The notes under the pieces are model-generated. The model saw only the letters and a list, made by a program, of their open reading frames with translations, was not told the origin of the DNA and did no database searches. 64,000 nucleotides of DNA from Acuticoccus sp. I52.16.1 (GTDB taxonomy: Bacteria > Pseudomonadota > Alphaproteobacteria > Rhizobiales > Amorphaceae), in the NCBI RefSeq assembly GCF_022865125.1, contig NZ_CP094828.1, forward strand, positions 4,085,219 through 4,149,218, read 5' to 3'. Made by a program: the position numbers and the translations under genes. Positions 4,179 to 57,274 of this stretch are shown here, one piece after another (position 1 is the stretch's first letter; each line of letters opens with the position of its first letter).

Positions 4179-4220
4179 GAAGCGAGGCGCACCGGCCGGT
4201 GCGCCTCGCTTCTTGCGTTT
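4179..4220 (+). terminator. Long perfect palindrome, probable terminator after ldtP
   Basis: Bases 4179-4212 form a perfect 34-base palindrome (17-base arms, beginning GAAGCGAGGCGCACC), followed by TTGCGTTT. The U-tract is interrupted, so termination is likely but may be partial. It could act in both directions. Confidence 0.65.
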
Positions 4221-37860: not shown

Positions 37861-37885
37861 CACCGTCACGCTCTTCCCGTAGACA
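37857..37885 (+). promoter_or_regulatory. Candidate sigma-70-type promoter of the GTA cluster
   Basis: TTGACA (37857-37862), a 17-base spacer and TAGACA (37880-37885). The -35 is perfect, the -10 is partial. It is the last promoter-like sequence before the GTA structural genes and overlaps the stop of the YcgN-like gene. The leader up to 38060 is 175 bases long and contains a terminator-like hairpin. Confidence 0.4.
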
Positions 37886-37977
37886 TTGGGTACTGTCGCA
37901 GAGTTGGCTTTGGGCTTCGGCCCGGATGTCCGCGCAATGGGTTCTGGCTGCGACGGGTTGTGTGAGTTGTGCCTTGA

Positions 37978-38010
37978 GGCGCGTCGCGGGCAGGCGGCGC
38001 GCCTTTTTTC
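37978..38010 (+). terminator. Terminator-like hairpin in the GTA leader
   Basis: GGCGCGTCGC pairs with GCGGCGCGCC (one G-U) across a six-base loop, 37978-38003, followed by six T and CTTG. It stands 50 bases before the first GTA start codon and downstream of the candidate promoter, which is where an attenuator would be. Confidence 0.65.
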
Positions 38011-38059
38011 TTGCGCCGGCCACGGCCGGCGCGGAGGGGCGCCGAGTTGGAGAGTTCTG

Positions 38060-38374
38060 ATGACCGAATTGGCGTTGGGCGGCCGTGGGCGGCGCGCGGG
38101 CCTGGTGGAGCGGATGTTCGAGGCGTTTTCTCGCCAGCTCCACGAGGTCGAGCAGCGGATTGCCGCGGGCGGGGCTGAGATCATCAAGGAGCACAAGACG
38201 CTCGGTGATCTCGCCAAGACGATGGAGACGCTGCTGTCGCTCGACCGGAAAGTGGCGGGCGACGGGGACGACGGGTCGGTGGATCTGGAGCGGCTCCGCA
38301 AGGATTTGGTCGAGCGGTTGGCGCGGTTCGCGCCGGTGCGGCGCAAGGCCGTGACGCCGACGGTCGTCGAATGA
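38060..38374 (+). CDS. GTA small terminase-like protein (g1 position)
   Basis: A 104-residue protein. The central part (LVERMFEAFSRQLHEVEQRI to LGDLAKTMETLLSLDRKV) is helical and charged, suited to oligomerisation, and a basic C terminus follows. Position and size match GTA g1, the small terminase of RcGTA, which has lost cos/pac specificity in true GTAs. ATG 38060 follows TTGGAGAG; the open frame upstream is not protein-like. The stop overlaps the large terminase start as ATGA. The assignment depends mainly on position. Confidence 0.7.
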   Translation: MTELALGGRGRRAGLVERMFEAFSRQLHEVEQRIAAGGAEIIKEHKTLGDLAKTMETLLSLDRKVAGDGDDGSVDLERLRKDLVERLARFAPVRRKAVTPTVVE

Positions 38375-39747
38375 CGGCCGCGGCGGTGGGAGGCGGCGCC
38401 GGCGTGGGCGCCGCCGACGTGCGGGAGGCCTTGAAGGCCTGCCTCGGGACCGAAGGCGGGCTGAGGGCGTTTCTCGCCGATTTGCCGGCGGCGCTGGCGG
38501 AGGGGCTGCTGGGCGACTGGGCCGTCTGGGCTCGGCGCGAGCAGATGCCGCCGCGCGGAGATTGGACGACCTGGCTCATTCTGGGCGGCCGCGGCGCGGG
38601 GAAGACGCGGGCCGGGGCGGAATGGGTTCGCGGCATGGTCGCCGGGCGCGCACCGTTCGCGGGGCAGCCGGCGGGGCGGATCGCGCTGGTGGGCGAGACG
38701 TTCGCCGATGCGCGCGAGGTGATGGTGGAGGGCGTGTCCGGGATCCTGGCGATCTCGCCGCGGCGCGAGCGGCCGGTGTGGCAGCCCTCGCGGCGGCGGC
38801 TGGAGTGGGCCAACGGGGCGGTGGCGCAGCTCTTCTCGGCGGCGGATCCGGAGAGCCTGCGCGGGCCTCAGTTCGACGCGGCGTGGGCCGACGAGCTGGC
38901 GAAGTGGCCGCAGGCGGAGGCGACCTGGGACATGCTGCAGTTCGGGCTGCGGCTGGGGGATCGGCCGCGGCAGGTGGTGACGACGACGCCGCGCTCGGTG
39001 CCGCTGTTGAAGCAGCTCATGGGCGACAAGCGCACGAAGATGACGCGCATGTCGACCGCGGACAACCGGGGCAACCTGGCGCCCGGTTTCTTGAAGGCGG
39101 TGGTGGACCGATACAAGGGGACCCGGTTGGGGCGGCAGGAGCTCGACGGCGAGCTGGTGGAGGATCGGGACGACGCGCTGTGGCGCCGCGCGCAGATCCA
39201 CCGCGACCGCGTCGCGCTGAAGCCGGAGATCGTGCGGGTGGTGGTCGCGGTGGACCCGCCGGCGACGAGCCACTCCAAGTCGGACGCGTGCGGGATCGTC
39301 GCCGTGGGGCTGGGCACCGACGGCCGCGCCTATGTGCTGGCGGATCGGACCATGTACCGGGCTTCGCCGCAAGCGTGGGCGGAGCGGGCGGTGGCGCTGT
39401 ACCACGCCCTGGAGGCCGACCGGCTGGTGGTCGAGGTGAACCAGGGGGGCGAGATGGTCGCCGCCGTGGTGGCACAGGTGGATCCGGCCGTGCCGGTGAC
39501 GCCTGTGCGGGCGACGCGAGGCAAATGGCTGCGGGCCGAGCCCGTGGCACAGCTCTACGAGCAGGGGCGCGTCAGCCACGTCGGCGTGCTGCCGGAGCTG
39601 GAGGACCAGATGTGCAACTTCGTTCCGGCGGGGACGTCCGAAGGGGCGTCGCCGGACCGGATCGACGCGCTGGTGTGGGCGCTGACGGCGCTGATGCTGA
39701 CGGCGGAGGCGAAGACGTCCGTGCCGCGGGTGCGGCGTTTCGGGTGA
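38371..39747 (+). CDS. GTA/phage large terminase subunit
   Basis: A 458-residue DNA-packaging motor. The ATPase Walker A is LGGRGAGKTRAGAEW, Walker B is in AAWADELAKW, and the coupling motif VVTTTPRS follows. The C-terminal nuclease domain shows VVAVDPPATSHSKSDACGI with the metal Asp, VEVNQGGEM and SPDRIDALVWALT with the final Asp. All catalytic residues appear intact, so packaging should work. It overlaps the g1 stop by four bases. A terminator-like hairpin separates it from the portal gene. Confidence 0.95.
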   Translation: MTAAAVGGGAGVGAADVREALKACLGTEGGLRAFLADLPAALAEGLLGDWAVWARREQMPPRGDWTTWLILGGRGAGKTRAGAEWVRGMVAGRAPFAGQPAGRIALVGETFADAREVMVEGVSGILAISPRRERPVWQPSRRRLEWANGAVAQLFSAADPESLRGPQFDAAWADELAKWPQAEATWDMLQFGLRLGDRPRQVVTTTPRSVPLLKQLMGDKRTKMTRMSTADNRGNLAPGFLKAVVDRYKGTRLGRQELDGELVEDRDDALWRRAQIHRDRVALKPEIVRVVVAVDPPATSHSKSDACGIVAVGLGTDGRAYVLADRTMYRASPQAWAERAVALYHALEADRLVVEVNQGGEMVAAVVAQVDPAVPVTPVRATRGKWLRAEPVAQLYEQGRVSHVGVLPELEDQMCNFVPAGTSEGASPDRIDALVWALTALMLTAEAKTSVPRVRRFG

Positions 39748-39778
39748 GGCTTCGGCCGCAACGATGAACGAGACCGAG

Positions 39779-39807
39779 GGGCTCCCAGTGGGGGCCCTTT
39801 TCTTTTT
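39779..39807 (+). terminator. Terminator-like hairpin between large terminase and portal
   Basis: GGGCTCCC and GGGGGCCC (39779-39797, one G-U pair) enclose a three-base loop, followed by TTTTCTTTTTG. It ends about 19 bases before the portal ATG. Confidence 0.7.
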
Positions 39808-39825
39808 GTCCCGGAAGGGGGTGCG

Positions 39826-40998
39826 ATGGGCATCTTTGGCAAACGCGAGACCAAGGCTTCGCGCGTGGGACGGCTGATGAGCGTGGAAGCGCTCGGCCGT
39901 CCGGTTTGGACGCCGCGCGACTATGCGTCGTTGGCGCAGGAGGGGTTTGCGAAGAACCCGGTCGTATTCCGGTCGGTCCGCATGATCGCGGAGGCGGCGG
40001 CCTCGGCGCCGTGGCTGCTCTACGAAGGCGAGCGCGAGATCGAGGCGCATCCTTTCCTGGACATGCTGCGGCGGCCGAACCCGGCGCAGTCGGGCGTGTC
40101 GCTGATGGAGACGGTCTACGGGCACCTGATGGTGGCGGGGAACGCGTACCTGGAGGTGGTCTCGCTGGACGGCGTGCCGCGCGAGCTGTTCGCGCTGCGG
40201 CCGGACCGGATGAAGGTGGTGGCGGGGCCCGACGGGTGGCCGCAGGCGTTCGAATATGCGGTGGCGGGGCGCACGGTGCGGTTCGCGCAGGAGGGCGACG
40301 TGCCGCCGGTGCTGCACCTGTCGCTGTTCCATCCGCTCAACGACCACTACGGGTTCGCGCCGATCGAGGCGGCGCAGATCTCGCTCGACATCCACAACGC
40401 GTCGGGGGCGTGGTCGAAGGCGCTGCTGGACAATGCGGCGCGGCCGTCGGGCGCGCTGGTCTACAACGGCGAGGGGCCGCTCAACGACGAGCAGTTCGAG
40501 CGGCTGAAGACCGAGCTGGAGGAGGGCTACACCGGCGCGCGCAATGCGGGGCGGCCGCTGCTCCTGGAAGGCGGGCTCGACTGGAAGACGATGGCGATGT
40601 CGCCCCGCGACATGGACTTCATCGAAGCGAAGAACCAGGCAGCGCGCGAGATCGCGCTGGCGTTCGGCGTGCCGCCGATGCTGCTGGGCATTCCGGGCGA
40701 CAATACCTACGCCAACTATCGCGAGGCCAACCGCGCGTTCTGGCGCCAGACGGTGCTGCCGCTGGTGAACCGGACGGTGCAGGCGATGGGGAACTGGCTC
40801 GGCCTCGCCTACGGCCCGGACCTCAGGCTGGCGTTCGATCCGGACGGGGTCGAGGCGCTCTCGGTCGAGCGCGACGCGCTGTGGGACCGGGTGGCGGCGT
40901 CGGACTTCCTGACGCGGGACGAGAAGCGCGCGGCCGTCGGCTACGGGATCGACGGCCACGGGGACACGGGGGACGGCGGTGATGCCGGGCCCGACTGA
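39826..40998 (+). CDS. HK97-type phage portal protein (GTA g3)
   Basis: A 390-residue dodecameric portal through which DNA enters the head. Typical landmarks are FAKNPVVFRSVRMIAEAAASAPW, HPFLDMLRRPNP, LMVAGNAYLE, SGALVYNGEGPLNDEQFERLK and AFGVPPMLLGIPGDNTYANYREANRAFW. It is full length. The ATG is 19 bases downstream of the preceding hairpin, with GGAAGGGGG as the ribosome site. The TGA overlaps the next start. Confidence 0.95.
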   Translation: MGIFGKRETKASRVGRLMSVEALGRPVWTPRDYASLAQEGFAKNPVVFRSVRMIAEAAASAPWLLYEGEREIEAHPFLDMLRRPNPAQSGVSLMETVYGHLMVAGNAYLEVVSLDGVPRELFALRPDRMKVVAGPDGWPQAFEYAVAGRTVRFAQEGDVPPVLHLSLFHPLNDHYGFAPIEAAQISLDIHNASGAWSKALLDNAARPSGALVYNGEGPLNDEQFERLKTELEEGYTGARNAGRPLLLEGGLDWKTMAMSPRDMDFIEAKNQAAREIALAFGVPPMLLGIPGDNTYANYREANRAFWRQTVLPLVNRTVQAMGNWLGLAYGPDLRLAFDPDGVEALSVERDALWDRVAASDFLTRDEKRAAVGYGIDGHGDTGDGGDAGPD

Positions 40999-41183
40999 TG
41001 GACCCGGTGACGCAGAACGTGATGGAGCGAGGTGACCTGGCGCACCTCGCTCTTTTTCTTTGGGCGTCTGCGTCCTCGGGGTTGCTGGCGTGGACGATGC
41101 GGGAGCTGGCCCGCTCGAACCGCCGCTTCTCGGAGTTCGTGAACGCGGTCGCGAAGCTCAATCAGATGTTTGGACAGGCCTGA
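40998..41183 (+). CDS. Small GTA head protein (g3.5-like) with one membrane-like helix
   Basis: A 61-residue protein with DLAHLALFLWASASSGLLAW as a hydrophobic segment, then a charged helix MRELARSNRRFSEFVNAVAKL. It occupies the position of rcc01685 (g3.5), a small protein reported to act in GTA head formation. The ATG overlaps the portal stop; ATG 41022 is an alternative. Codons 10-19 lie within a perfect terminator-like hairpin (41025-41052), so either the protein tolerates this RNA structure or translation is regulated by it. Confidence 0.65.
   Translation: MDPVTQNVMERGDLAHLALFLWASASSGLLAWTMRELARSNRRFSEFVNAVAKLNQMFGQA
41025..41061 (+). terminator. Terminator-like hairpin inside the g3.5-like gene
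   Basis: Perfect ten-base arms GAGCGAGGTG (41025-41034) and CACCTCGCTC (41043-41052) enclose an eight-base loop, followed by TTTTTCTTT. It is the cleanest intrinsic terminator shape in the cluster, yet it lies within a coding region and within a long co-directional gene run. Confidence 0.75.
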
Positions 41184-41362
41184 TGGTGGGATGGGTTCGC
41201 CGTGCCGCGCAGCCGCTCGTGCGGCTGACGACGGTGCAGAAGATCGAGCACGAGGCGGTGTTCGACGCGTTCGCGGGGATCGTGCAGCGGGCGGCGCTCG
41301 AGGAGCGGGTGCGGCGTGAGCCGCGGGTGATCAGCTTCCGGCAGAAGCGGGGCGTGTTGTGA
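41183..41362 (+). CDS. Small basic hypothetical protein in the GTA head module
   Basis: A 59-residue protein, MVGWVRRAAQPLVRLTTVQ..., with a helical middle (EHEAVFDAFAGIVQRAALEER) and a basic end. The ATG overlaps the previous stop and its own stop overlaps the start of the protease gene, so it is embedded in a chain of overlapping genes. That is the main evidence that it is real. No family was recognised. Confidence 0.5.
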   Translation: MVGWVRRAAQPLVRLTTVQKIEHEAVFDAFAGIVQRAALEERVRREPRVISFRQKRGVL

Positions 41363-41937
41363 GCGCGCCGCGGCTGGGCGCGGCGCCGGAGCGCAAGTAC
41401 GCCGCGGCGCTCGCCTCGGTGGACGCGGACGGGCGCTTCTGCGGCTACGCCTCGCTGTTCGGACGGATGGATCTGGGCGGCGACGTGGTCATGCCGGGAG
41501 CGTTCGCGCGGACATTGCGGCTGCGCGGCGCCGGCGGCGTGCGGATGCTGCTGGAGCACGATCCGGGCGCGCCGATCGGGGTGTGGCTGACGCTGGAGGA
41601 GGACCGCCGCGGCCTGTGGGTCGAGGGACGGATCGTGGGCACTCCCGGCGCGGCGCGGGCCGGCGCGCGGATGGCGGCCGGCGAGCTGGACGGGCTCTCC
41701 ATCGGGTTTCGCACGGTGCGTGCGGATGAGGATCGGCTGGCGCGAGTGCGCCGGCTGACTGAGATCGATCTCTGGGAGGTGTCGGTGGTGCATTCACCGA
41801 TGCTGCCGGAGGCGAGGGCGCGGGCGGCGGGAGCCTGCCGTGCCGATGCTGGGGGCATCGCTCCCGAGGCTGCCGTGGACGCGGGGCTGGTCGCCTTGCT
41901 GCGTCGGGAAACGGCCATTCTTCGTCAAACGAGGTAG
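41359..41937 (+). CDS. HK97-type prohead protease (GTA g4)
   Basis: A 192-residue serine protease that cleaves the capsid N terminus after assembly. The N-terminal half has the prohead-protease fold, with GYASLFGRMDLGGDVVMPGAFART, then LLEHDPGAPIGVW carrying the catalytic His, and GELDGLSIGFRTV carrying the catalytic Ser. A linker after residue 160 is Ala-rich. It starts with GTG overlapping the upstream gene and ends directly before the capsid ATG. Confidence 0.93.
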   Translation: MSAPRLGAAPERKYAAALASVDADGRFCGYASLFGRMDLGGDVVMPGAFARTLRLRGAGGVRMLLEHDPGAPIGVWLTLEEDRRGLWVEGRIVGTPGAARAGARMAAGELDGLSIGFRTVRADEDRLARVRRLTEIDLWEVSVVHSPMLPEARARAAGACRADAGGIAPEAAVDAGLVALLRRETAILRQTR

Positions 41938-43155
41938 ATGATGGACAACGAGATGGGTGCGCCCGAGACCAAGGCCGAGCTGAACGACGCGTTCGGTGAA
42001 TTCATGGGGGCCTTCGAGGTCTTCCGTGAGACCAACGACCGTCGACTCGCGGAGCTGGAGAAGAAGGGCGCTGATGCGCTGACCGTCGAGAAACTGTCGC
42101 GTGTCGAGGCGGCGCTCGACTCGCAGCAGCGCCGGATGGACGAGATGGTGCTGCGCGGTGCCCGCCCCTCGCTGATGGGTGGTGCGCCGGTCGCGGTCAA
42201 CGAGACCAAGAGCGCCTTCAATGCCTTCGTGCGCTCCGGCGACGAGCAGGCGATGCGTCAGCTCGAGACGAAGGCGATGACGTCGGACGGCGGACTGGCC
42301 ATGCCGATCGAGGTCGAGGCCGAGGTGATGCGTCGGCTGGGGCAGATCTCGCCGATCCGCTCGATCGCGACGGTCCGCACGATCTCCGCGACGAGCTTCC
42401 GCAAGGCGGTTCCGAACGGCTTGACCGGGGCGTGGGCGAGCGAGTCGGCGGCGCGTTCGGCCGACACGGCCACGCTGAAGGCGCTGAACTTCCCGACGAT
42501 GGAGCTCTATGCGATGCCGGCTGCGTCGTCGGTGCTGATCGACGATGCGGCGGTGGACGTCGAGGCCTGGCTGGCGGACGAGATCGAGATGGTCTTCGCC
42601 GAGCAGGAGACCAAGGCGTTCGTCATCGGTGACGGCACGACCATGCCCAAGGGCATCGTCAGCTACGCCGGCACGTCCGAGGACGGCGATCTGGACAACG
42701 AGACGCTGGGCATCGTGAAGACCGGCAACAACGGCGGCTTCCCGACGGTGGCGCCGAGCGACGCGCTGGTGGACCTCGTGTACTCGCTGAAGGCGAGCTA
42801 CCGGCAGAACGCGCACTTCGTGATGAACCGCAGCACGCAGGCGCACATCCGCAAGCTGAAGGATGGCGAGGGCGAGTATCTGTGGAGCCCGCCCTCGGTT
42901 CCGGGTGGCCGTGCCGGGCTGATGAGCTTCCCGATCGTGGAAGCGGAGGACATGCCCGACTTCACGACGACCGGCGCCAACGCGATCGCGTTCGGCGATT
43001 TCCGTCGCGGTTATCTGATCGTCGATCGTCAGGGCATCAAGGTGCTGCGCGATCCGTACTCTGCGAAGCCGAACGTGCTGTTCTACACGACGAAGCGTGT
43101 GGGTGGCGGCGTGCAGGACTTCGACGCGATCAAGCTGCTGCAGTTCGCCGCCTGA
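41938..43155 (+). CDS. HK97-type major capsid protein (GTA g5)
   Basis: A 405-residue capsid precursor. Residues 1 to about 105 form the charged delta domain with a coiled coil (ETNDRRLAELEKKGADAL), removed by the prohead protease. The HK97 fold follows: GGLAMPIEVEAEVMRRL, a long helix (VDVEAWLADEIEMVFAEQETKAFVIGDG) and the P-domain strands near FHFVMNRST-like text and PFGDFRRGYLIVDR. ATG 41938 is followed by a second ATG. A strong hairpin with six T follows 41 bases after the stop. Confidence 0.95.
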   Translation: MMDNEMGAPETKAELNDAFGEFMGAFEVFRETNDRRLAELEKKGADALTVEKLSRVEAALDSQQRRMDEMVLRGARPSLMGGAPVAVNETKSAFNAFVRSGDEQAMRQLETKAMTSDGGLAMPIEVEAEVMRRLGQISPIRSIATVRTISATSFRKAVPNGLTGAWASESAARSADTATLKALNFPTMELYAMPAASSVLIDDAAVDVEAWLADEIEMVFAEQETKAFVIGDGTTMPKGIVSYAGTSEDGDLDNETLGIVKTGNNGGFPTVAPSDALVDLVYSLKASYRQNAHFVMNRSTQAHIRKLKDGEGEYLWSPPSVPGGRAGLMSFPIVEAEDMPDFTTTGANAIAFGDFRRGYLIVDRQGIKVLRDPYSAKPNVLFYTTKRVGGGVQDFDAIKLLQFAA

Positions 43156-43195
43156 GTTCATGCGTGGTGGCGGTCGCCTTCGGGCGGCGGGGGGC

Positions 43196-43230
43196 GGGCC
43201 AGGAGGTTTTCTGGCCCCCTTTTTTGTTTG
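43196..43230 (+). terminator. Terminator-like hairpin after the capsid gene
   Basis: GGGCCAG (43196-43202) and CTGGCCC (43211-43217) enclose an eight-base loop, then CC and six T, then GTTTG. It sits 65 bases before the next start codon. As it follows the capsid gene, it could set the usual excess of capsid over tail proteins. Confidence 0.72.
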
Positions 43231-43294
43231 ATCCACGCGCTCTTCGGGCCGCCGGCAGGCGGCCCAGGATGCGCGGCAATTCTTGGGTGGAACG

Positions 43295-43867
43295 ATGGTG
43301 GCGATCCTGGTGACACCGCCGCAGGCCGAGCCTGTGACGCGTGAGGAAGCGAAGCTGCATGCCCGCATCGACGGCACGGCCGAGGATGCGAAGGTGGATG
43401 CGCTGATCACGGCGGCGCGGCTCGACGTGGAGAGCCGGACCGGGCGGGTTCTGGTGACGCAGGGATGGCGGATCGTGCGCGATGGGCCGCCTGCGGGCGG
43501 GATCGTGCGGCTGGCGCCGGGGCCGGTGCAGAGCGTCGACACGGTGACGGTCTATGGCGCGGACGGGGCGGCCGAGGTCGTCCCCGCGGGCGACTATCTG
43601 GTGGATGTGGCGAGCACACCGGGGCGGCTGAAGCTGTCGTCCGGGCGGTTCTGGGGGGCGCGGGCGCTCAACGGGCTCGAGATCGACATGACGTGCGGTT
43701 ACGGCGACCCGGCGGACGTGCCCGCGTCGTTGAAGCAAGCCGTGCTGATGCTGGTCTCCTACTGGTACGAACAGCGCGAGGCGGCCTCGGTGGGGGCGGT
43801 GCCGGCGCATGTGGCGTCCGGTGTGACGGCTCTGACGGCGCCTTATCGCATGCCGAGGCTGGCGTGA
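43295..43867 (+). CDS. Head-tail connector protein (GTA g6)
   Basis: A 190-residue connector of the gp6/gp15 type. The N terminus reads VTPPQAEPVTREEAKLHARID, then a helical region VDALITAARLDVESRTGRVLVTQGW that is diagnostic of phage gp6-like adaptors. The C terminus includes LKQAVLMLVSYWYEQREAAS. It binds the portal from below. ATG 43295 is chosen because the family starts just before LVTPP; the frame is open to 43283. Its stop overlaps g7. Confidence 0.9.
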   Translation: MVAILVTPPQAEPVTREEAKLHARIDGTAEDAKVDALITAARLDVESRTGRVLVTQGWRIVRDGPPAGGIVRLAPGPVQSVDTVTVYGADGAAEVVPAGDYLVDVASTPGRLKLSSGRFWGARALNGLEIDMTCGYGDPADVPASLKQAVLMLVSYWYEQREAASVGAVPAHVASGVTALTAPYRMPRLA

Positions 43868-44190
43868 CGCCGGGGGCGGGCGAACTGCGGCATCGCCTGG
43901 TGCTGGAGGTCGCGAGCGAGGCGGCCGACGGCGCCGGCGGGGCGACGCGGACGTGGACGCCGGTGGAGAGCGTTTTTGCGCAGGTCGAGCCGCGGCGGCG
44001 CCGGGAAAGCGTGGAAGACGGGCGGCACGTCGGGCTGGTGACGCACCGGGTGACCGTGCGGCGCAACGGCAGCGTGGCGCGAGGCGCGCGCTTCGTGGAG
44101 GGCGCCACGCGCTACCGGGTGCTGGCGGTCGAGGACGCCGACCCGCAGCGGCGCTTCCTGGAATGCCTCTGCGAGGAGGAGCAGGGATGA
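43864..44190 (+). CDS. Head-tail adaptor protein (GTA g7)
   Basis: A 108-residue beta-rich protein of the SPP1 gp16-like stopper class: G-ELRHRLVLEVASEAADGAGG, WTPVESVFAQVEPR, then VTHRVTVRRNGSV. It caps the connector after packaging. The GTG start overlaps the g6 stop and the stop overlaps the g8 start as ATGA. The forward frame upstream of 43864 is out-of-frame g6. Confidence 0.87.
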   Translation: MTPGAGELRHRLVLEVASEAADGAGGATRTWTPVESVFAQVEPRRRRESVEDGRHVGLVTHRVTVRRNGSVARGARFVEGATRYRVLAVEDADPQRRFLECLCEEEQG

Positions 44191-44591
44191 GCGATGCGCG
44201 GCATGCTCTCATGGCCGAGATCTATCGGGTGCTTTTGGCGGACGGGACGCTGGCGGCCCAGCTGGCCGGGCAAGGCGTGTTCGACGGGGTGCCGCAGGGG
44301 GCGGCGCATCCGTTCGTTTCGATCGGTGAGGTGCGCTCGGGCGCCCTGGATGCGGACGCGGTGCCGACGATGGAACACCGGGTCGAGCTCATCGTGAACA
44401 CACGCAGCGGGCGACGCGAGGCGTCGGAGATCGCCGACCGGGTGCGAGCGGTGCTGGAGGACGCGGCGATGGCGCCCGAGGGGCACCGCCTGGTGTCGCT
44501 CGGGCACCGGGACACGGATGTGACTTCGAGCCGTGATGGACGGGCGTTTCGGGCGCGGATGCGGTTCCGCGCACTGACGGAAGCGAACTGA
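44187..44591 (+). CDS. DUF3168 tail-completion protein (GTA g8)
   Basis: A 134-residue protein matching DUF3168: LMAEIYRVLLADGTLAAQL, VFDGVPQGAAHPFVSIGEV, HRVELIVNTRSGRREASEIADRV, and HRDTDVTSSRDGRAFRARMRF. Members connect the head adaptor to the tail tube. It is fully embedded in the chain of overlapping genes. Confidence 0.9.
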   Translation: MSDARHALMAEIYRVLLADGTLAAQLAGQGVFDGVPQGAAHPFVSIGEVRSGALDADAVPTMEHRVELIVNTRSGRREASEIADRVRAVLEDAAMAPEGHRLVSLGHRDTDVTSSRDGRAFRARMRFRALTEAN

Positions 44592-44602
44592 AGGAGGGCG
44601 CC

Positions 44603-45016
44603 GTGGGTGCGCAGAAGGGCAAAGACCTTCTCTTGAAGGTCGACGAGACGGGGGCCGGCTCGTTCGTGACGGTGGCGGGTCTTCGCTCCAAGCGGATCTC
44701 GTTCGGTGCGGAAGCGGTGGACGTGACCGACCAGGAGTCGGCGGGGCAGTGGCGCGAGCTGCTGGACGGCGCGGGGATGCGCCGGGCGAACCTCGCAGGA
44801 TCGGGGATTTTCAAGGACGCCTCGTCCGACACAGTGGTGCGAACGATCTTCTTCAACGGCTCGGTGCGGGACTGGCAGGTGATCGTGCCGGATTTCGGAA
44901 CCGTGGAGGGGCCGTTCCAGGTCACGGCGCTGGAATATGGCGGCAACCACGATGGCGAGATCGTCTACGAGATCGCCATGGAGTCGGCCGGGCAGCTGAC
45001 CTTTACTGCGGACTGA
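44603..45016 (+). CDS. Major tail tube protein, TP901-1 family (GTA g9)
   Basis: A 137-residue tube subunit: GKDLLLKVDETGAGSFVTVAG, SFGAEAVDVTDQESAGQWREL, then SGIFKDASSDTVVRTIFF. The order and spacing match the TP901-1-type major tail proteins. It starts with GTG behind GGAGGGCG. It is expected to be among the most abundant products of the cluster, and has no hairpin of its own. Confidence 0.93.
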   Translation: MGAQKGKDLLLKVDETGAGSFVTVAGLRSKRISFGAEAVDVTDQESAGQWRELLDGAGMRRANLAGSGIFKDASSDTVVRTIFFNGSVRDWQVIVPDFGTVEGPFQVTALEYGGNHDGEIVYEIAMESAGQLTFTAD

Positions 45017-45027
45017 TGGGGGAAGGC

Positions 45028-45360
45028 ATGGCCAATCGCTATCGCGGTGAGGTCGAGGCGGTTCTGGACGGACGGCATTGGACGCTGTGCCTGACGCTGG
45101 GCGCGTTGGCGGAGCTGGAGCGGGTGTTCCAGTGCGCGGACATGGCGGCGCTGGTGGATCGGTTCGCGGCGGGCAAGCTCTCGGCGTGGGACGCGATCCG
45201 GATCATCGGGGCGGGGCTCCGCGGGGCGGGGCACGCGATCGACGACGACCAGGTGTCACGGATGACGGCGGACGGGGGCGCGGCGGGGTTCGCGACCATC
45301 GTGACGGAGCTTCTGACGGCGACGTTCGGGGGCGGTGCGGAGGTGGCCGACCCTTCTTGA
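45028..45360 (+). CDS. GTA g10 protein (tail assembly chaperone-type)
   Basis: A 110-residue protein with the N-terminal beta-strand pair NRYRGEVEAVLDGRHWTLCLTLGALAELER, then helices. It matches the gene transfer agent family protein at the g10 position, a tail tube assembly chaperone. ATG 45028 has GGGGGAAGG just upstream and is preferred over ATG 45016. The last A of the stop is also the first base of the next ATG. Confidence 0.87.
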   Translation: MANRYRGEVEAVLDGRHWTLCLTLGALAELERVFQCADMAALVDRFAAGKLSAWDAIRIIGAGLRGAGHAIDDDQVSRMTADGGAAGFATIVTELLTATFGGGAEVADPS

Positions 45361-45560
45361 TGTCGGCCGCGCCCCGAGAGGTGCGGCCGTTTCCCTGGCG
45401 CGATCTGATGGCGCTGTTTATCGGCGAGCGGCGCATGGCGCCGGCCGATTTCTGGGCGCTGACCCTTCCTGAAATCGAGGCTGTGCTCGGCCCTTGCGTG
45501 CCCGTTGGGACGCGCCGGGGGGATTTGGCACGGCTGATGGAGCGTTTTCCCGATGGCTGA
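45360..45560 (+). CDS. Small tail-assembly protein (GTA g10.1, rcc01693-like)
   Basis: A 66-residue protein: VRPFPWRDLMALFIGERRMAPADFWALT, then LPEIEAVLGPC. The W-R-x-L and the P-x-x-FW-x-LT-x-PE pattern is that of phage tail-assembly chaperone partners (GpGT-like second product). In many phages the two chaperone genes are joined by a frameshift; here they simply overlap by one base. The stop lies inside the start of the tape-measure gene. Confidence 0.82.
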   Translation: MSAAPREVRPFPWRDLMALFIGERRMAPADFWALTLPEIEAVLGPCVPVGTRRGDLARLMERFPDG

Positions 45561-46131: not shown

Positions 46132-46148
46132 GCAGGGGGCTTTGAGCC

Positions 46149-48054: not shown

Positions 48055-48055
48055 T

Positions 48056-51000: not shown

Positions 51001-51931
51001 CGGAATGAACCTTCCGCTGGTGGATCGAGCGGTGCCGGAGCACGTCCCCTGGATCGCATGCTACGCGAGACCATTTCCGGAGCAGATGGGTGTGTGGCAG
51101 CAGGTGCCGGGCGGTTCCTTCCAGTTGATCCGAACGGTCGCCAAACCGGCGTCCATGGGGGTCACGGCGAGCGAGTTGGCGCCGGGGCCGGCACACCGTT
51201 GGCATCGTGGCGGATCGGTTGATGTCCGGCTCTTCAATGCGGCGGCATCCTCGGCGCCGGAGATGGACGTCCTCAGCGGAGCGAATGCCTTGGCGATCGA
51301 GGCGTCGGAGGGTCTCTGGGAGGTCGTCCAGTATCGCGATGCGGTGTTGATCGGGGACGGGGTCTACCGGCTTTCCGTCCTGCTCCGAGGCCAACTGGGG
51401 ACCGAGGACGCGGCGGCGACACATATCGCGGCCGGGGCTCGGGTCGTGATGCTCGATCGGTCGCTGGCTTCGCTGCCCGTTGACATCGACGAGGTGGGGC
51501 TACTCCGAAATTACCGGGTGGGGCCGCTGGCCGAAGGGATCGGTGGACCCAATACGACGGAATTCACCTTCACCGCGACGGGGCGGGGGATGCTCCCCTT
51601 CGCACCGGCGCATGGACGGGCGCGGCGGGAGAGCGACGGTGCGCTGACGCTTTCCTGGGTGCGACGGACCCGCGTCGGCGGTGATCGGTGGGGGGCGGGG
51701 GACGTGCCGTTGGGGGAAAGCGCCGAATCTTATCGGCTCGAAATTCTCGACGGCGAGACGGTCGTGCGCACCGTGACGACCTCGGCGCCGACGTTCTCGT
51801 ATGCGCTGGCCGATCAGACGGCCGACTTCGGAGGCGCGCCGGATCCGGTGTCGTTCCGTGTGGGGCAGTATTCGCCGGGCTTCGCGCTCGGCACGCTTTA
51901 TGAGGTGACCGTCGATGTCCAACAGTCTTAA
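48056..51931 (+). CDS. Large baseplate/tail-tip protein with TIM-barrel domain (GTA g15)
   Basis: A 1291-residue 'megatron'-type protein. The N terminus is Gly/Ala-rich (AAGQAVGGLLGPVGAIAG), a possible membrane-penetrating segment. Next comes a hub region with IPKVYGRMRLAGTVIW. Residues of about 430-740 are the GTA TIM-barrel-like domain (MMLHYARLTAQAGGVDAFLVG, VDFIGIDNYWPLSDWRDG). A phage tail_3-type domain follows to about 950, then beta-rich repeats. It probably crosses the outer membrane and helps DNA delivery. The last 17 bases overlap the fibre gene. Confidence 0.94.
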   Translation: MATLVLQAAGQAVGGLLGPVGAIAGRAAGALAGNMIDHRIFGDNSTRSVGRIDDVSVQTASEGNPIPKVYGRMRLAGTVIWATDFEEHTRTSAVGGKGGGPKVREYSYTANFAVGICEGPIARVGRIWADGEPMDLAGVDYEVYTGRDDQEADPLIEAVEGTAPAYRGLAYVVFKGLPIGPFGNRLPQLTFEVLRPIGQLERDVRAVTIIPGSTEFGYHPDLVRLQVGPGEMLADNRHIGVAATDFTASLDELTAVCPNLERVALVVAWFGTDLRAGECALKPRVERREPETVPAWSVSTLTRDTAEVVSADAGRPNYGGSPSDASVFAAIQALKARGLKVVFYPFVLMDVPPGNGLPDPYLGEEQAPFPWRGRITVSPAPGEAGSPDGTAAADAAVATFVGTAAVGDFGGAGADVSYGGPEEWSFRRMMLHYARLTAQAGGVDAFLVGSELPGLTTIRGIGGYPFVDALVTLIDDVRSIVGGDTQISYAADWTEYFGHSDGADLTFHLDPVWASANVDFIGIDNYWPLSDWRDGTHLDEAVAGSVYDPDYLAGNVAGGEGYDWYYQAGDRAAQVRSPIQDLGYGKPWVYRYKDLAGWWANQHYDRIGGVEVAAPTAWVPQSKPVWFTELGCPAIDRGSNQPNVFFDPKSSESKLPYYSSGRRDDGIQRAHLRAFYDVYEAGGAPDPTVNPVSSVYGGRMVDASTIHIWTWDARPWPMFPHLLDLWSDGTNWERGHWLNGRLGGVPVDALLASLFEDWGLEAPDVTAVPTVLDGFIVSGPSSLRSVVEPLLDAVSAVAADTGTAIRVVGPARSPAMAVGEDDLVEVDGRTPLVVETRDDPGGLPVEMRLRYFDSGRDFQIASARYRPQAGSARQVETISLSASLNDALATELAELALAVRWSGRTTVRFALPQSRLALAPGDIVTLSLDGTTREVLVEEIEDLGHRLVTGRSLDRAALAVTPVRATFDAPGVPVTLSPPATFGMNLPLVDRAVPEHVPWIACYARPFPEQMGVWQQVPGGSFQLIRTVAKPASMGVTASELAPGPAHRWHRGGSVDVRLFNAAASSAPEMDVLSGANALAIEASEGLWEVVQYRDAVLIGDGVYRLSVLLRGQLGTEDAAATHIAAGARVVMLDRSLASLPVDIDEVGLLRNYRVGPLAEGIGGPNTTEFTFTATGRGMLPFAPAHGRARRESDGALTLSWVRRTRVGGDRWGAGDVPLGESAESYRLEILDGETVVRTVTTSAPTFSYALADQTADFGGAPDPVSFRVGQYSPGFALGTLYEVTVDVQQS

Positions 51932-53387
51932 TCTCGAACTGCCGTACTTGGAGGAAGCGCAGGCGCAGAAGCACGTCACAGTCAACGATGCGCTGACGCG
52001 GCTGGACTCGCTGGTCCAGCTCACGGTGATCGACCGTGACCTGGCGGCACCGCCGGGCGCGCCTGCCGAGGGCGACCGGTACATCGTCGCCGCGAGCGCG
52101 ACGGGAGCGTGGGCGGGGCACGAGGCGGATGTGGCGGCCTTCGTCGACGGGGCGTGGGCCTTTTTCGCGCCGCGCGAGGGCTGGCTGGCCTATGTGCAGG
52201 ATGAAGACGGCCTGACCGTCTTTGACGGCGCTGGCTGGGATGCGCTGGGCGGCGCACTGGCCGCGCATTCGACGTCGAAGCTTGGGATCAACACGAGCGC
52301 CAGCGATACCAACAAGCTGGCTGTCAGCTCGTCCTATGCGTTGTTCTCACCGGCCGTCGGAGCGGGGGACGTCCGCATCGTCGCGACGAAGGATGCGGCG
52401 GGAGACGTCGTCTCGCATCTCTTTCAGACCAACTATTCGGGCCGGGCGGAATTCGGGCTGATCGGCAGCGACGACTTCTCGCTCAAGGTCAGCGCCGACG
52501 GCTCGGCCTTCTCGCAGGCGTTCGCGGTGGACCGGACGACGGCGACGGTGTCGTTCGACAACGCGATCGATGCCGATGGAGCGGGCGTGACGCTCGGCGC
52601 CGATGGTGTGAGCTGGGCTAGCGGGCTTTCGATTTCGCTGGGTGCGGCGGGCGAGGCCGGATCGGTGGCGGTGGGCGCGTCGGCGCTGGTGGCGGCGACG
52701 ACCGGGACGGACAACAGCGCGCTGGGCGCTTCGGCGTTGGGAGCGGTGACGACGGGGTCCGAGAATGTCGCGATCGGCGGAAACGCCGGGGGGGCGCTGA
52801 CGATCGCCTCGGGCGCGACCTTCGTGGGCTTTGGGGCTGGTGCGGCGCTGACGGGCGCCGACAACTCGGCCCTTGGACGGGATGCGTTCGTCGGCGCGCC
52901 GGCGGCGGTGACGAACTGCGCGGCGGTGGGCGCCGCGGCCACCGTCACGGGCAGCAACCAAGTGCAACTCGGCGACAGCGCGACGACGACCTACGCCTAT
53001 GGCGCGGTGCAGAACCGGTCGGATGCGCGCGACAAGACGGACGTGCGCGACACGGCGTTGGGACTGGCGTTCGTGCGGGCGCTGCGGCCGGTCGATTTCC
53101 GCTGGGACTACCGGGAGGATTACCGAGGACCGGCAGGCACGGTCCGCGACGGGTCGAAGACGCGTTCGCGCTACCATCATGGGTTCATCGCACAGGATGT
53201 GGAGGCGCTGATCGGCGCGACCGGTGTCGATTTCGGCGGGTTTCAGGACCACGCGATCGGGGGTGGCAGGGACGTGAAGTCACTCGGATACACCGAGTTC
53301 GTCGCGCCATTGGTGAAGGCGGTTCAGGAGCTGAGCGCGGAAGTGGACGCGCTTCGGGCGCGGCTCGAGGCGGCGCCGACGGGGTGA
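51915..53387 (+). CDS. DUF2793 tail fibre with YadA-like repeats and S74 chaperone domain
   Basis: A 490-residue fibre. Residues 1-110 are DUF2793 (LELPYLEEAQAQKHVTVNDAL), which attaches to the baseplate. About residues 255-350 contain repeats of the N-SALG-x-x-A type (DNSALGASALGAVTTG, DNSALGRDAF) found in trimeric beta-roll adhesins. Residues 368-490 are an intramolecular chaperone of endosialidase type (SDARDKTDVRD, LRPVDFRWDY, HGFIAQDVEAL, YTEFVAPLVKAVQEL), which trimerises the fibre and cuts itself off N-terminal to the Ser. It is likely the receptor-contacting fibre. Confidence 0.88.
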   Translation: MSNSLNLELPYLEEAQAQKHVTVNDALTRLDSLVQLTVIDRDLAAPPGAPAEGDRYIVAASATGAWAGHEADVAAFVDGAWAFFAPREGWLAYVQDEDGLTVFDGAGWDALGGALAAHSTSKLGINTSASDTNKLAVSSSYALFSPAVGAGDVRIVATKDAAGDVVSHLFQTNYSGRAEFGLIGSDDFSLKVSADGSAFSQAFAVDRTTATVSFDNAIDADGAGVTLGADGVSWASGLSISLGAAGEAGSVAVGASALVAATTGTDNSALGASALGAVTTGSENVAIGGNAGGALTIASGATFVGFGAGAALTGADNSALGRDAFVGAPAAVTNCAAVGAAATVTGSNQVQLGDSATTTYAYGAVQNRSDARDKTDVRDTALGLAFVRALRPVDFRWDYREDYRGPAGTVRDGSKTRSRYHHGFIAQDVEALIGATGVDFGGFQDHAIGGGRDVKSLGYTEFVAPLVKAVQELSAEVDALRARLEAAPTG

Positions 53388-53431
53388 GGGGAGTGCGTCC
53401 CGAGGGGACGCGAGGGATCCAAGTGGAAACC

Positions 53432-53467
53432 AAGCACTCGTGCGGCGCGCGGGTGCTTTTTTCTTTG
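53432..53467 (+). terminator. Terminator-like hairpin between fibre and lysin genes
   Basis: AAGCACTCG (53432-53440) and CGGGTGCTT (53450-53458, one G-U pair) enclose a nine-base loop, then six T, C, TTTG. The lysin ATG is 28 bases beyond. Confidence 0.7.
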
Positions 53468-53494
53468 TAGTACTCATGTGTAGGGGGTCACACG

Positions 53495-54445
53495 ATGCAG
53501 GATCGTGTTCCGTGGCTCGATTATCTCAGCAACCATGTTGGACTGAAGGAGGTTCCGGGGGCGCAGCACAACCCGCTGATCGTCGAGTGGGGCAAGCAGT
53601 CGGGGATCGACTGGTGGAACAACGACGAGGACGCCTGGTGTGCGGTCGCGGTGAACGGGGCACTGGTGAACTCGGGCTATCCGTCGACGCGTTCGGCGCT
53701 GGCGCGGTCGTTCACGCGCTATGGCACGCGCCTGTCGTCGCCTGTGCGCGGGGCGATCGTGGTGTTTCCGCGGGGATCCAATCCGCTCTACGGGCACGTC
53801 GGCATCGTGGAGAGCGTGCGGGCGGACGGGACGATCGTCATCATCAACGGCAATTCGGGCAATGCGGTGCGGCGCTCCGTGTTTCGCACCTCCTCGATCC
53901 TGCCGGACGGGATCCGCTGGCCTCCGGGCGCGGTGGCGCCGTCGGAGAGCGGGCCGGTTGCGGTGGATGTTCCGCTCGGCGCGCGCGTGCTGCAGTTCGG
54001 CAGCCGCGGCGAGGACGTCGAGGCGCTCCAGCGCGACATGAACGTGTTGAACTATCAGCTCACCGTGGACGGGGTCTTCGGTGGGCGCACGCGCGATGCG
54101 GTCATGCGCTTCGAGCAGCGGCGCGGGCTCAAGGGCGACGGAATCGCCGATCCGGCGATGTTGGCGGCACTGACGGCAGCCGTCGATGCGCGAACCAAGC
54201 AGGATGATCGTCGCAAGACGGCGGAGAAGGCGGCTGCGCCGATCGCCGGCGCTGGCGCCGCCGTCACGGTCGGCGCCGCGGCAACGTCGACGGTCGACAT
54301 GGCCAGCGATGTGAGCGCGGTGGACGGCGGGACCATGATCGGCATGGCGGCCATCGCCGTCGCGGTCGCGTTGGTCGCGGCGATCCTCCTGTGGCGCTAC
54401 TCCATCCGCCGGGCCGAAGGGCCCATTCTCGACGAGGCGGTCTGA
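53495..54445 (+). CDS. CHAP-like lysin with peptidoglycan-binding repeat and C-terminal membrane anchor
   Basis: A 316-residue protein of the TIGR02594 type. The catalytic domain has DAWCAVAVNGAL with Cys (about residue 49), GHVGIVESV with His, and INGNSGNAV. A PG_binding_1 domain covers about 163-230 (FGSRGEDVEALQRDMNVL, DGVFGGRTRDAVMRFEQRRGL). After an Ala-rich linker, one helix (GMAAIAVAVALVAAILLW) and a short basic tail RYSIRRAEG end the protein. There is no signal peptide. It may release GTA particles or digest recipient walls; no separate holin was found. Confidence 0.82.
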   Translation: MQDRVPWLDYLSNHVGLKEVPGAQHNPLIVEWGKQSGIDWWNNDEDAWCAVAVNGALVNSGYPSTRSALARSFTRYGTRLSSPVRGAIVVFPRGSNPLYGHVGIVESVRADGTIVIINGNSGNAVRRSVFRTSSILPDGIRWPPGAVAPSESGPVAVDVPLGARVLQFGSRGEDVEALQRDMNVLNYQLTVDGVFGGRTRDAVMRFEQRRGLKGDGIADPAMLAALTAAVDARTKQDDRRKTAEKAAAPIAGAGAAVTVGAAATSTVDMASDVSAVDGGTMIGMAAIAVAVALVAAILLWRYSIRRAEGPILDEAV

Positions 54446-54491
54446 CCGCGCGCGGCTGGCGGATCGAAGCTGGCTGCGCAATCCGTGACTT

Positions 54492-54637
54492 GCCCGCCTC
54501 CGGTTAGCCCGGGGGCGGGCCTCGAGCGCTTTGAGCTGCGGTGCAGCCGGGTATCTGCGCGGCGAACAATGTTCGCTGGCCGCCGGGCCGCGCCGCGCCG
54601 AGCCGGCGCTCGTCGTGTGTCACCGCCCCTTGGTGAC
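54492..54637 (+). other. Structured leader of the tailspike gene
   Basis: The 225 bases before the tailspike hold no gene but contain three symmetric elements. One is a 12-base stem at 54492-54520 (GCCCGCCTCCGG arm, five-base loop, no T-run). The second is a 15-base palindrome GCGAACAATGTTCGC at 54562-54576. The third is a six-base stem GTCACC/GGTGAC at 54619-54637, just upstream of the start codon. Together they suggest a separate promoter-operator or mRNA control for the tailspike. Confidence 0.4.
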
Positions 54638-54670
54638 GTTCGCAACCTTTCCAAGCATTGGAGATAAACG

Positions 54671-57202
54671 ATGGTCGGTTTAGGCCTTGGCCCGATCCGG
54701 GGGGCGCCGTTCAGCCCGGCGGCCGCCAGCCGTGATGTGGCGCAATCGAACCACATCCCGGCAGACGTGAAGCTCATGTACCTGAAGGGCTATGCTGCGG
54801 AAGCCGATGGCGGGGCGCACTCCGTCAAGCGCGTCGCCAGCGAGCCTTCGCACGCGGGCAAGGTCCGTACCGCGGACCGCTACCTGCCCGATGGCTCGGT
54901 GAACCAGGCCAACGGCGGTTGGTGGGAGATGGCCGAGCCGATGCCGACGCCGGAGATGTTCGGCGCGATCGGCGATGGCGTCGCCGACGATACCGCCGCC
55001 ATCACCAACTGGCTGAACTATGGCGGCGGACGCACCGACGATGGCAGCAAGGTCTATCTCTTCGACCCGGTGCTGCTGACGACGCCGGTCTCGGTGATCT
55101 GCGCGCGGGGAACGACGTTCAAGCTGCGCTCCGGCTGGTCGACCTGGCTGGGCGAAGCGGGTCATATCGAGGTGCGCGCCGACTTCCGGTGGTCGGGCGG
55201 GCGCTTCGACGGTTCGCGAACCGATACCGATGTGATGGCGGGACTGCTCGACATCCTCGGGACGAGCTCGGCCGATGAGGTGCTGAACCAGTACAAGGCG
55301 GCGATCTTCGTGCGCGTCGGCAGCGAGGATATCGACGTCGACCTGCGCGATATCGAGGTGGTGGATCACGTCAACCTGGCGATCTACTGCAAGGGTACGA
55401 CCACCGGCGCGGTGACGGGCACGATCGACGATATTCGCTCCGAGCGATGCGGTTTGGGCTATCGCTTCGACCGGTGCCGCGATCTCTATATCGGCTCGAT
55501 CGGGGCGCGGGATGTCGACAATCGCCAGGCGGGCGACAACGACGTGTTCTTCCCGTCCTTCTTCCACGTCGTGCACATGCTGCGCTCGACCAACTGCCCG
55601 GTGCGCAGCATCGACATCGAAAACGTGACGGGCCGCGCGGGCCGTCACGGCACCTCGTCGGCGTTCATGAACGGCATCACCTGGGTCGGCAACGTGCGTT
55701 GCCCGATCCACTATGCGGGGGTTCATCGCATGGGGGCGGCGGCGGGGCAGCCGTCGGATTATGGCGGGCAGAACGTGCGTGAGACGGTGTCCATGCTCGG
55801 CGTGTCGTGGATCTCCAACGACAGCGCGACGCGGTTCGACGAATTCTCGTTCTTCGGCACGGCGACCCAGGGCATCGAAGTCATCACCGACTTCGACATC
55901 AGCTTCGGGCGGATGCTGCTGTGGTCGGACGGTGGGCGGCAGAACGTGCTCTCGGGCAGTTCTGCCGTGAATGCGCATGGCGATGCGCGGCCGCCCGAGA
56001 ACGTGGGCAACGGGCGTCACAAACGCACCAGCCGTATCACCTTCTCCGAACTCATCATCCGCGGTCAGTGGCACTACGGGATCTGGGCCCGCAAGAACGT
56101 TATCGAGGTGGGCGTCTGCTCGATCCGGGAGTGTCGCGCCGACCCGATCTTGCTCGACAACGACGGGCAGATCGAGTTCGAGGGCAGCGAAGAACCGCAG
56201 CGGCCTTCGGTCATCGTGCACGATGCCGACATCGCCTACTGCGGCGGCCAGGTGCGGGTGGTGAACGGCGAACGGCTGGAGATCCACTCCGGGCGCGTGT
56301 CGGACAACTGTCAGCGCTCGGGCTACGACGATCCGACCCTCGCCGGATCCGCCTTCACCCGGACACACGGCGTGGCGTACGACGGGTCGGACACGAACTC
56401 GGACGCGGTCGAACGCATCTACGTCAGCCCGGACGTGCAGACCAAGCCGCTGTCGAAGGCGGTGAACGCGTCGACCGGGATCTCGTTCATGCCCGGCCTT
56501 CCGGTGCGGGGGTCGGACGAAACGGTGCCGGAGCTCGACCTCTACTATGGTTTCATCACCGCGACCGAGCCCTCGGAAATCCATCTCGGCCAGAAGCTGG
56601 TGCTGAAGGATTTGAATGGGTCGACGGACATCACCGTTTGGCCTGTGTACAGCTCCGGTGACGTCTTCATGGTCGAGGTGGACGACGCGCAGAAAGCCAT
56701 CTCGTGGAGTGCGAGCGGGCACGTGTCCAGCCTCTCCGGTAGCTGGGACCACGTCCTGGACGCCAATCAGGTCGACGGCACCGGCGGCGATCTCTCCGAC
56801 GATCTCGACGGCCCCGCTTATATCAGCACGCCCTATGGTGTTCTGCGCTTCCAGAACATCCGCAACGAGAATTCGTTCTACATCGATCAGTCGAGCGAAT
56901 GGGGAACGGACCCGGTCTACACCGTGTCGCAGTCGTTCTCCGGTGCGACGCTTCAGGTGATCGACACCGGCTACACCTATGCGCTCAGCCAGACGTCGGA
57001 TTACTCGGTGAAGCACGCGAACGTCGTCGCGCCGTCGGCCGGCATCGTGAGCCTCAGCAGCTACACCAAGGCGCAACTTCCGGCGCCGACCGGTCATCCG
57101 GGGAACGTGGTCTACGTGTCGGACGAGGCGGGCGGCTCCGTGCTGGCGTTCTCGGACGGATCGAACTGGCGCCGCGTGACCGACCGCGCCGTCGTCACCT
57201 GA
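54671..57202 (+). CDS. Beta-helix tailspike (pectate-lyase-like fold)
   Basis: An 843-residue protein. After about 90 residues, probably particle-binding, comes PEMFGAIGDGVADDTAAITNWL, the standard entry to phage tailspike beta-helices. A long run of short beta-strand turns follows (about 110-560), rich in Asp, Asn and Gly, and then a beta-rich C-terminal part. The last 60 residues (SLSSYTKAQLPAPTGHPGNVVYVSDEAGG) form a small domain seen at the end of other phage structural proteins. Such proteins bind and often cleave surface polysaccharide. No catalytic residues were identified. GC content is lower than in the neighbouring core genes. Confidence 0.78.
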   Translation: MVGLGLGPIRGAPFSPAAASRDVAQSNHIPADVKLMYLKGYAAEADGGAHSVKRVASEPSHAGKVRTADRYLPDGSVNQANGGWWEMAEPMPTPEMFGAIGDGVADDTAAITNWLNYGGGRTDDGSKVYLFDPVLLTTPVSVICARGTTFKLRSGWSTWLGEAGHIEVRADFRWSGGRFDGSRTDTDVMAGLLDILGTSSADEVLNQYKAAIFVRVGSEDIDVDLRDIEVVDHVNLAIYCKGTTTGAVTGTIDDIRSERCGLGYRFDRCRDLYIGSIGARDVDNRQAGDNDVFFPSFFHVVHMLRSTNCPVRSIDIENVTGRAGRHGTSSAFMNGITWVGNVRCPIHYAGVHRMGAAAGQPSDYGGQNVRETVSMLGVSWISNDSATRFDEFSFFGTATQGIEVITDFDISFGRMLLWSDGGRQNVLSGSSAVNAHGDARPPENVGNGRHKRTSRITFSELIIRGQWHYGIWARKNVIEVGVCSIRECRADPILLDNDGQIEFEGSEEPQRPSVIVHDADIAYCGGQVRVVNGERLEIHSGRVSDNCQRSGYDDPTLAGSAFTRTHGVAYDGSDTNSDAVERIYVSPDVQTKPLSKAVNASTGISFMPGLPVRGSDETVPELDLYYGFITATEPSEIHLGQKLVLKDLNGSTDITVWPVYSSGDVFMVEVDDAQKAISWSASGHVSSLSGSWDHVLDANQVDGTGGDLSDDLDGPAYISTPYGVLRFQNIRNENSFYIDQSSEWGTDPVYTVSQSFSGATLQVIDTGYTYALSQTSDYSVKHANVVAPSAGIVSLSSYTKAQLPAPTGHPGNVVYVSDEAGGSVLAFSDGSNWRRVTDRAVVT

Positions 57203-57217
57203 CTCAACGAGACGTGA

Positions 57218-57253
57218 AGAGCCGGCCGGGGGATCCCCGGCCGGCTCTTTTTT
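57218..57253 (+). terminator. Strong intrinsic terminator closing the GTA cluster
   Basis: Perfect 14-base arms (AGAGCCGGCCGGGG at 57218-57231 and complement at 57235-57248) with a three-base loop, followed by a run of T to 57253. It separates the cluster from the convergent methyltransferase gene. Confidence 0.92.
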
Positions 57254-57274
57254 GCGTTTGCCGCCGTGTGCCGC

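Follow-up and report, generated by a model that had tools for sequence, protein, structure and literature searches.

The structural gene cluster of a gene transfer agent (GTA) in Acuticoccus sp. I52.16.1 is punctuated by six hairpins with T-runs, all on the + strand, and we consider it probable that the five internal ones are intrinsic terminators along one transcription unit, which RNA polymerase passes by antitermination of the GafZ type. The cluster is of the RcGTA type, reaches from g1 to a fibre-like gene (38060–57202, + strand) and is contained in a stretch of 64,000 nucleotides from the 5.5 Mb genome (contig NZ_CP094828.1, positions 4,085,219 to 4,149,218; G000:C1:4085219-4149218 in our set), which we call the window and whose numbering is used throughout. 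Because cells that make GTAs are reported to lyse in the end, it matters how a GTA stays off and how it comes on. A preliminary description of the window had pointed out the six hairpins, and offered a read-through factor, attenuation that sets gene dosage, or borders of acquired modules as explanations.

Two scans and a background drawn from the same genome bear out the six sites. Scan 1 listed consensus terminator-like sites on both strands of 37600–57500, and scan 2 assigned a score d composed of hairpin energy and the d'Aubenton-Carafa tail score. The first predicted terminator occupies the interval between promoter and g1 (hairpin 37978–38003, with T-run 37978–38012; d = 63). The next separates terminase and portal (hairpin 39779–39797, with T-run 39779–39807; d = 56), while a terminator-like hairpin at 41025–41052 (with T-run 41025–41061; d = 42), the weakest of the set, lies inside a small open reading frame (ORF). 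The post-capsid site (hairpin 43192–43220, core 43196–43217, with T-run 43192–43229; d = 45) and the site before a lysin-like CHAP/PG_binding gene (hairpin 53434–53456, with T-run 53434–53467; d = 53) complete the internal series. The hairpin at the end of the cluster (57219–57247, with T-run 57219–57261) is the strongest of the six (d = 80, dG −30.5 kcal/mol, z −7.9), faces a convergent methyltransferase gene and is an ordinary operon end; the internal hairpins have dG values of −14.8 to −21.7 in scan 2. All six show the hallmark of intrinsic terminators, a G+C-rich stem and then a T-run. The placement of the internal hairpins in the preliminary description, within 20–65 bases of a start codon or inside a gene, needs correction: the first one belongs to the 5' leader and is separated by 57 bp from the ATG of g1 (38060), the one at 41025 falls inside the 61-codon ORF 40998–41183, and 75 bp lie between the end of the post-capsid hairpin and the next ATG (43295).

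Because 8.9 sites of any quality were expected by chance in scan 1, it is only the quality of the six that is unusual, and they own the longest stems among the 13 sites found there. In scan 2, seven sites with d > 40 were obtained on both strands of the window, six of them in the cluster and the seventh at 4182. In 100 dinucleotide-shuffled versions of the cluster, sites with d ≥ 40 averaged 0.01, and 20 segments of 20 kb taken from this genome and read on both strands (800 kb-strand) contained 6 such sites with a maximum of one per 20 kb-strand. Thus, 6 sites are observed in the 19.4 kb cluster where 0.15 are expected (Poisson P ~1e-8, or 5e-7 for five sites), which is beyond chance.

Eight genomes, the present one (G000) and its same-genus relatives G001–G007, were compared junction by junction. 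The leader hairpin is present in all 8 genus members (d ~39 to 67), invariably 3' of the conserved GTA promoter and ahead of the first gene, and so is the post-capsid hairpin (d 25 to 70; 7/8 at d ≥ 30), while the terminase–portal hairpin was found in 7/8. The pre-CHAP hairpin (4/8 at d ≥ 30, with the G001 sequence stopping short of the site) and the in-gene hairpin (3/8 at d ≥ 30) are less conserved. The T-tracts are retained together with the stems, on the sense strand. The stems themselves differ in sequence between species and remain paired: counted from the stem base, both sides are altered in 7/7 pairs of the leader, 6/7 of the post-capsid, 5/6 of the pre-CHAP, 2/6 of the terminase–portal and 2/8 of the in-gene stem, and combination with another species' 3' arm leaves 52, 60, 61, 81 and 92% pairing, respectively. 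As the procedure itself guarantees 100% pairing within each species and the stems were indexed from the base without alignment, these values are an indication of compensatory change rather than a formal test of it. The preliminary description had named a lack of stem conservation in close relatives as grounds for its refutation, and the comparison did not refute it.

A GTA promoter is predicted at 37857–37903 (+ strand) by a matrix and by alignment in relatives. It is composed of a −35 element TTGACA (37857–37862), a degenerate palindrome (37861–37873), a −10-like TAGACA (37880–37885) and a GTCGCAGAG block (37895–37903). Its TTGACA touches the stop codon of the upstream gene (37387–37860), which has the same direction as the cluster; this arrangement is common to the genus leaders, and the same block stands before the clusters of other genera. 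The matrix covers 66 bp with fixed spacing, namely an A+T-rich stretch, TTGACA, the palindrome consensus over the loci CAGCGT-n-ACGCTG, which is placed between −35 and −10, a TAGGGT-like −10 and the GTCG block. The window promoter scores 58.7 bits, the runner-up in the window 5.4 and the best site in 800 kb-strand of own-genome background 4.3. Among the 98 loci described below, 46 exceed 16 bits, the top score in 60 stretches of antisense control being −7.1; since the matrix was refined on the loci it scored, the scores of those loci are partly given by construction. A shorter promoter pattern with two mismatches had proved useless (499 + 519 hits), and the matrix was used instead. Upstream of clusters without a matrix match, no clear candidate for a Caulobacter-type element was seen. 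Located at a fixed distance 3' of the −10 across genera, the GTCG block at 37895–37903 falls within the first bases to be transcribed and might serve in pausing or loading. From the estimated transcription start, the leader hairpins begin at a distance of 12–454 nt across loci and of 82 nt in the window, where a second G+C-rich inverted repeat (38013–38032) directly follows the leader T-run.

Little or no room is left for new promoters 3' of the hairpins, so that read-through seems to be required. No TA dinucleotide occurs from 38003, 39797 and 43220 to the respective next start codons, and therefore a usual −10 is absent there. The stretch after 53456 does contain TAGTAC and TAGGGG, and a weak promoter at this place is conceivable. 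The pattern TANNNT is absent from the four hairpin-to-start stretches, a test that the TAGACA of the GTA promoter itself would also fail. Likewise, a sigma-70 scan of 37600–57500 found no promoter, which is a weak control because the GTA promoter was missed too.

About 640 kb from the cluster, the genome carries a gafY-gafZ-sufE locus. Its gafY gene (Bac_DnaA_C, DnaA-like) lies directly upstream of gafZ, a DUF6456 gene, with an ORF overlap of 4 bp, and is followed after gafZ by SufE. The DUF6456 match (PF20057) has E 5.7e-44 in the genome and 6.9e-44 for the protein, for which a search by sequence matched no solved structure. A GafY-like match adjoins DUF6456 in 26/40 loci, and the excerpts of PMC9638019 used here describe Hyphomicrobiales gafA homologues with the same arrangement and the annotation DUF6456. 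DUF6456 and the GTA capsid co-occur in samples of the class and of the order: strong DUF6456 matches are present in 26/51 class genomes with the capsid (E ≤ 1e-60) versus 11/238 without, and, among 61 relatives including the own genome, in 45/48 with capsid versus 7/13 without.

A hairpin between promoter and first gene, the lack of promoter room, the gafYZ locus and the precedent of Caulobacter GafZ (excerpts of PMC11150451) together make a read-through factor, as raised in the preliminary description, the best supported explanation. Since the stop signals are conserved at the same places in close relatives, the cell probably needs a special factor of this kind. From these features we infer termination in cells, binding of GafZ, read-through and an effect on dosage, in the following manner. 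Polymerase would start at the conserved promoter (about 37857–37892) and, if unmodified, would be stopped mainly at the leader terminator and, after leakage, at the later ones, which would keep the structural and lysin-like genes silent. Once GafY and GafZ are made, GafZ would load at the element between −35 and −10 and move with the polymerase, enabling its passage through the stops. Each stop may shed some polymerase and produce a stepwise fall in expression, with capsid mRNA exceeding tail mRNA as a side effect of the post-capsid stop, and the sixth hairpin would be the ordinary end of the unit. The leader hairpin may additionally end the transcript of the upstream gene.

To follow the hairpins beyond the genus, 98 loci were collected: 37 from 48 relatives with a capsid match, 31 from further class genomes (32/51 with a capsid match, counting G000) with a second copy in G201, 26 from the 33 loci of another locus set, and three prophage controls. 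From the 33, L034–L036 were omitted as copies of G002–G004, and L038, L046, L049 and L064 were likewise unused. The prophages and the first G201 copy, in which only two genes were matched and which carries three sense hairpins, were set aside, leaving 94 loci; those from one genus are non-independent rows. Junction counts skip gaps above 1500 bp and refer to the sense strand at d ≥ 30 unless stated otherwise. Two draft genomes have impaired capsid matches, split over two frames in G009 and with one TAG in G006, owing to decay or sequencing errors.

Outside the genus, a leader hairpin occurs in 17/39 loci with a recognised promoter and a terminase match. The post-capsid hairpin follows with 18/74 loci, and terminase–portal (7/65), portal–protease (6/69) and protease–capsid (1/79) are occupied less often. 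On the antisense strand of all loci, the counts are 0/47 for the leader, 1/73 for terminase–portal, 0/77 for portal–protease, 0/87 for protease–capsid and 0/82 for the post-capsid junction, the last comparing with 25/82 in sense. Leaders with a recognised promoter mostly hold a clear terminator or none (at d ≥ 20 and over a longer stretch, 29/47 in sense versus 1/47 in antisense). Hairpins are scarce in the tail region (6/654 over the nine junctions from g6 to g15) and inside the 14 core genes (6/1168); two more sites lie in long g14–g15 gaps outside the junction counts. When the 76 clusters that extend from terminase to g15 are taken as units, one or more sense terminators are present in the leader or interior of 47, and antisense ones in 4 (Fisher P 2e-14, a nominal value, as the rows are related). 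The three prophage controls, which have related capsids, show one sense hairpin each, all upstream of the portal match, and are too few for any claim. Among the matches listed in a literature search, we found no description of terminators or of this promoter motif in Hyphomicrobiales GTAs, and none that joins Acuticoccus with gene transfer agents.

Other explanations of the hairpins have to be weighed against antitermination. They might be leaky, partial attenuators that set gene dosage, mainly capsid over tail, without a dedicated factor. The post-capsid site, which together with the leader is the most widespread, the weaker folding of the internal hairpins compared with the final one, and the precedent of a T7 terminator right after capsid gene 10 (excerpts of PMC5592923) would fit such a role, and for the post-capsid hairpin it is possible. 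However, the leader hairpin affects every gene equally and is left unexplained, the pre-portal hairpin would work the wrong way by reducing capsid relative to the terminase encoded upstream of it, and gafYZ is present alongside a known antiterminator precedent; we therefore regard attenuation as unlikely. There is a very slim chance that the hairpins mark the borders of modules or morons that were acquired separately, each together with a terminator of its own. Some junctions (L050, G008, G009, L040) do hold inserted DNA in which a hairpin closely precedes the following gene, but at the capsid–g6 junction hairpins (d ≥ 20) are commoner in short gaps (23/51) than in gaps above 200 bp (8/36), the same junctions are reused across genera, and a hairpin in the leader would again be unexplained.

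It is also improbable, to our mind distinctly so, that the hairpins have nothing to do with termination within the cluster and act in RNA stability or translation control, the leader hairpin only ending the upstream gene. Most of them do precede a start codon by a short distance (median 37 bp for capsid–g6), no Rfam family is matched at gathering thresholds, and the gene upstream of the leader is co-directional and abuts the promoter. On the other hand, T-tracts are kept with the stems on the sense strand, which none of these roles needs, and the leader hairpin, lying between the predicted promoter and g1, must be passed anyway.

Several observations weigh against GafZ-type antitermination or narrow it. 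Folding energy alone is less striking than the score d, with z = −2.5, −1.6, −3.1, −1.7, −3.8 and −7.9 in positional order, and the case for the six sites is built on conservation and on the combination of stem and T-tract. The palindrome in the window (CACCGT-C-ACGCTC) is degenerate, with 4/6 pairs. Promoter-bearing leaders elsewhere are without a hairpin in 18/39 loci at d ≥ 20 or so and in 22/39 at d ≥ 30, and 29 of the 76 terminase–g15 clusters have no sense terminator in leader or interior at all. Many tail junctions overlap and offer no room for a hairpin, so that part of the contrast between head and tail genes only reflects where gaps are located. Terminators were found in 32/51 clusters with DUF6456 versus 2/7 without, which is not significant (P 0.11, 58 clusters). 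The cluster of G069 (L177) has three sense terminators at d ≥ 30 in a genome that shows no match to DUF6456; its GafZ may have diverged, a different factor may act, or the cluster may be silent. No direct repeats of the terGTA form, three copies of 150 bp after the first gene, were found here, and for this reason the Acuticoccus system would be a variant of GafZ-type antitermination.

Selection on the in-gene hairpin at 41025 is uncertain. Codons 10–21 of its ORF show a synonymous identity of 189/316, compared with 476/987 for its other codons (permutation P 0.025), a level that is also reached by 838/2891 12-codon windows in nine other GTA genes. Its codons are rare, 4/3742 windows being equally rare on average over eight species. 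As the rarest codons occur in G006, which has no in-gene hairpin, this rarity does not point to the hairpin. The ORF (40998–41183), situated between portal and protease, matches no Pfam or NCBIfam family, and its motif RGDLAHLALFLWA is retained in most of the order's clusters where the ORF was found.

By Pfam and NCBIfam matches, the cluster 38060–57202 codes for terminase, portal, prohead protease, capsid, head-tail connector, tail tube, DUF2460, hub, NlpC/P60 and GTA_TIM/Rcc01698 proteins. A DUF2793 protein, the CHAP/PG_binding protein and a large protein that matches no Pfam family follow 3' of the RcGTA-type core genes. The last ~12 codons of the protease gene (41890–41943), just before the capsid start, have the highest synonymous conservation in the examined Acuticoccus GTA genes (up to 0.88 identity); they are rare codons, TTCTTCGTCAAACGAGGT is nearly constant, and a translation enhancer for the capsid is possibly located here.

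The conserved promoter signature, and terminators that recur at fixed junctions across many genera, suggest that much of another order uses the same control in a multi-stop form. Together they offer a sequence marker by which GTA clusters with retained control elements can be recognised. We tentatively extend this to a general scheme, for which the chances are somewhat less than even: Hyphomicrobiales GTAs might carry a terminator series passed by one promoter-loaded antiterminator, in which the leader stop is an on/off lock and the later stops, above all the post-capsid one, turn the processivity of GafZ-bound polymerase into head-to-tail stoichiometry. The array would be actively kept, its sequence being renewed and its position held across genera.

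Antitermination reportedly also concerns the Bartonella BaGTA, going by nothing but the title of a paper by Korotaev et al. in eLife 2025 (cited in PMC13236601). A classical parallel is lambda Q with the leader terminator tR'. Like the system proposed here, it combines a promoter-loaded factor, a terminator soon after the start and read-through into a late operon; unlike it, Acuticoccus has several internal stops. Caulobacter GafZ is reported to lack any similarity to Q in sequence or structure (PMC11150451). In T7, the single phage terminator Tphi stands right after capsid gene 10 and genes 11–12 are reached via read-through only (PMC5592923), which resembles the position directly 3' of the capsid gene of the hairpin 43192–43220, with downstream genes that would likewise be reached by read-through. 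T7 differs in its phage polymerase, several promoters and one terminator, and the excerpts mention no antiterminator.

Within the GTAs, Rhodobacter RcGTA has a related cluster, in which the C-terminal part of GafA is the counterpart of GafZ and binds the −10/−35 region; GafA is one protein, in contrast to the gafY-gafZ pair here (PMC9638019, PMC6363796). The excerpts of these two papers contain no terminators for RcGTA, and antitermination has been suggested for it in PMC11150451. The closest system is CcGTA of Caulobacter, for which PMC11150451 describes activation by GafY and IHF and antitermination by GafZ past terGTA. There, GafZ requires a palindrome between −10 and −35, moves with polymerase and Nus proteins, and lets polymerase through terGTA as well as E. 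coli rrnB T1; the latter matters because rrnB T1 is an ordinary intrinsic terminator like those of Acuticoccus. Both systems share the GTA cluster, the gafY-gafZ pair, a terminator early in the unit and an element between −35 and −10, whose palindrome is degenerate in the window. CcGTA has one terminator, formed by the three repeats after its first gene, whereas Acuticoccus has several ordinary hairpin/T-run terminators, the first of them in the leader and others ahead of portal and behind capsid. GafZ antitermination, proven in Caulobacter, is what we infer for Acuticoccus, whose cluster is best read as the multi-stop form of this already known mode of GTA control.

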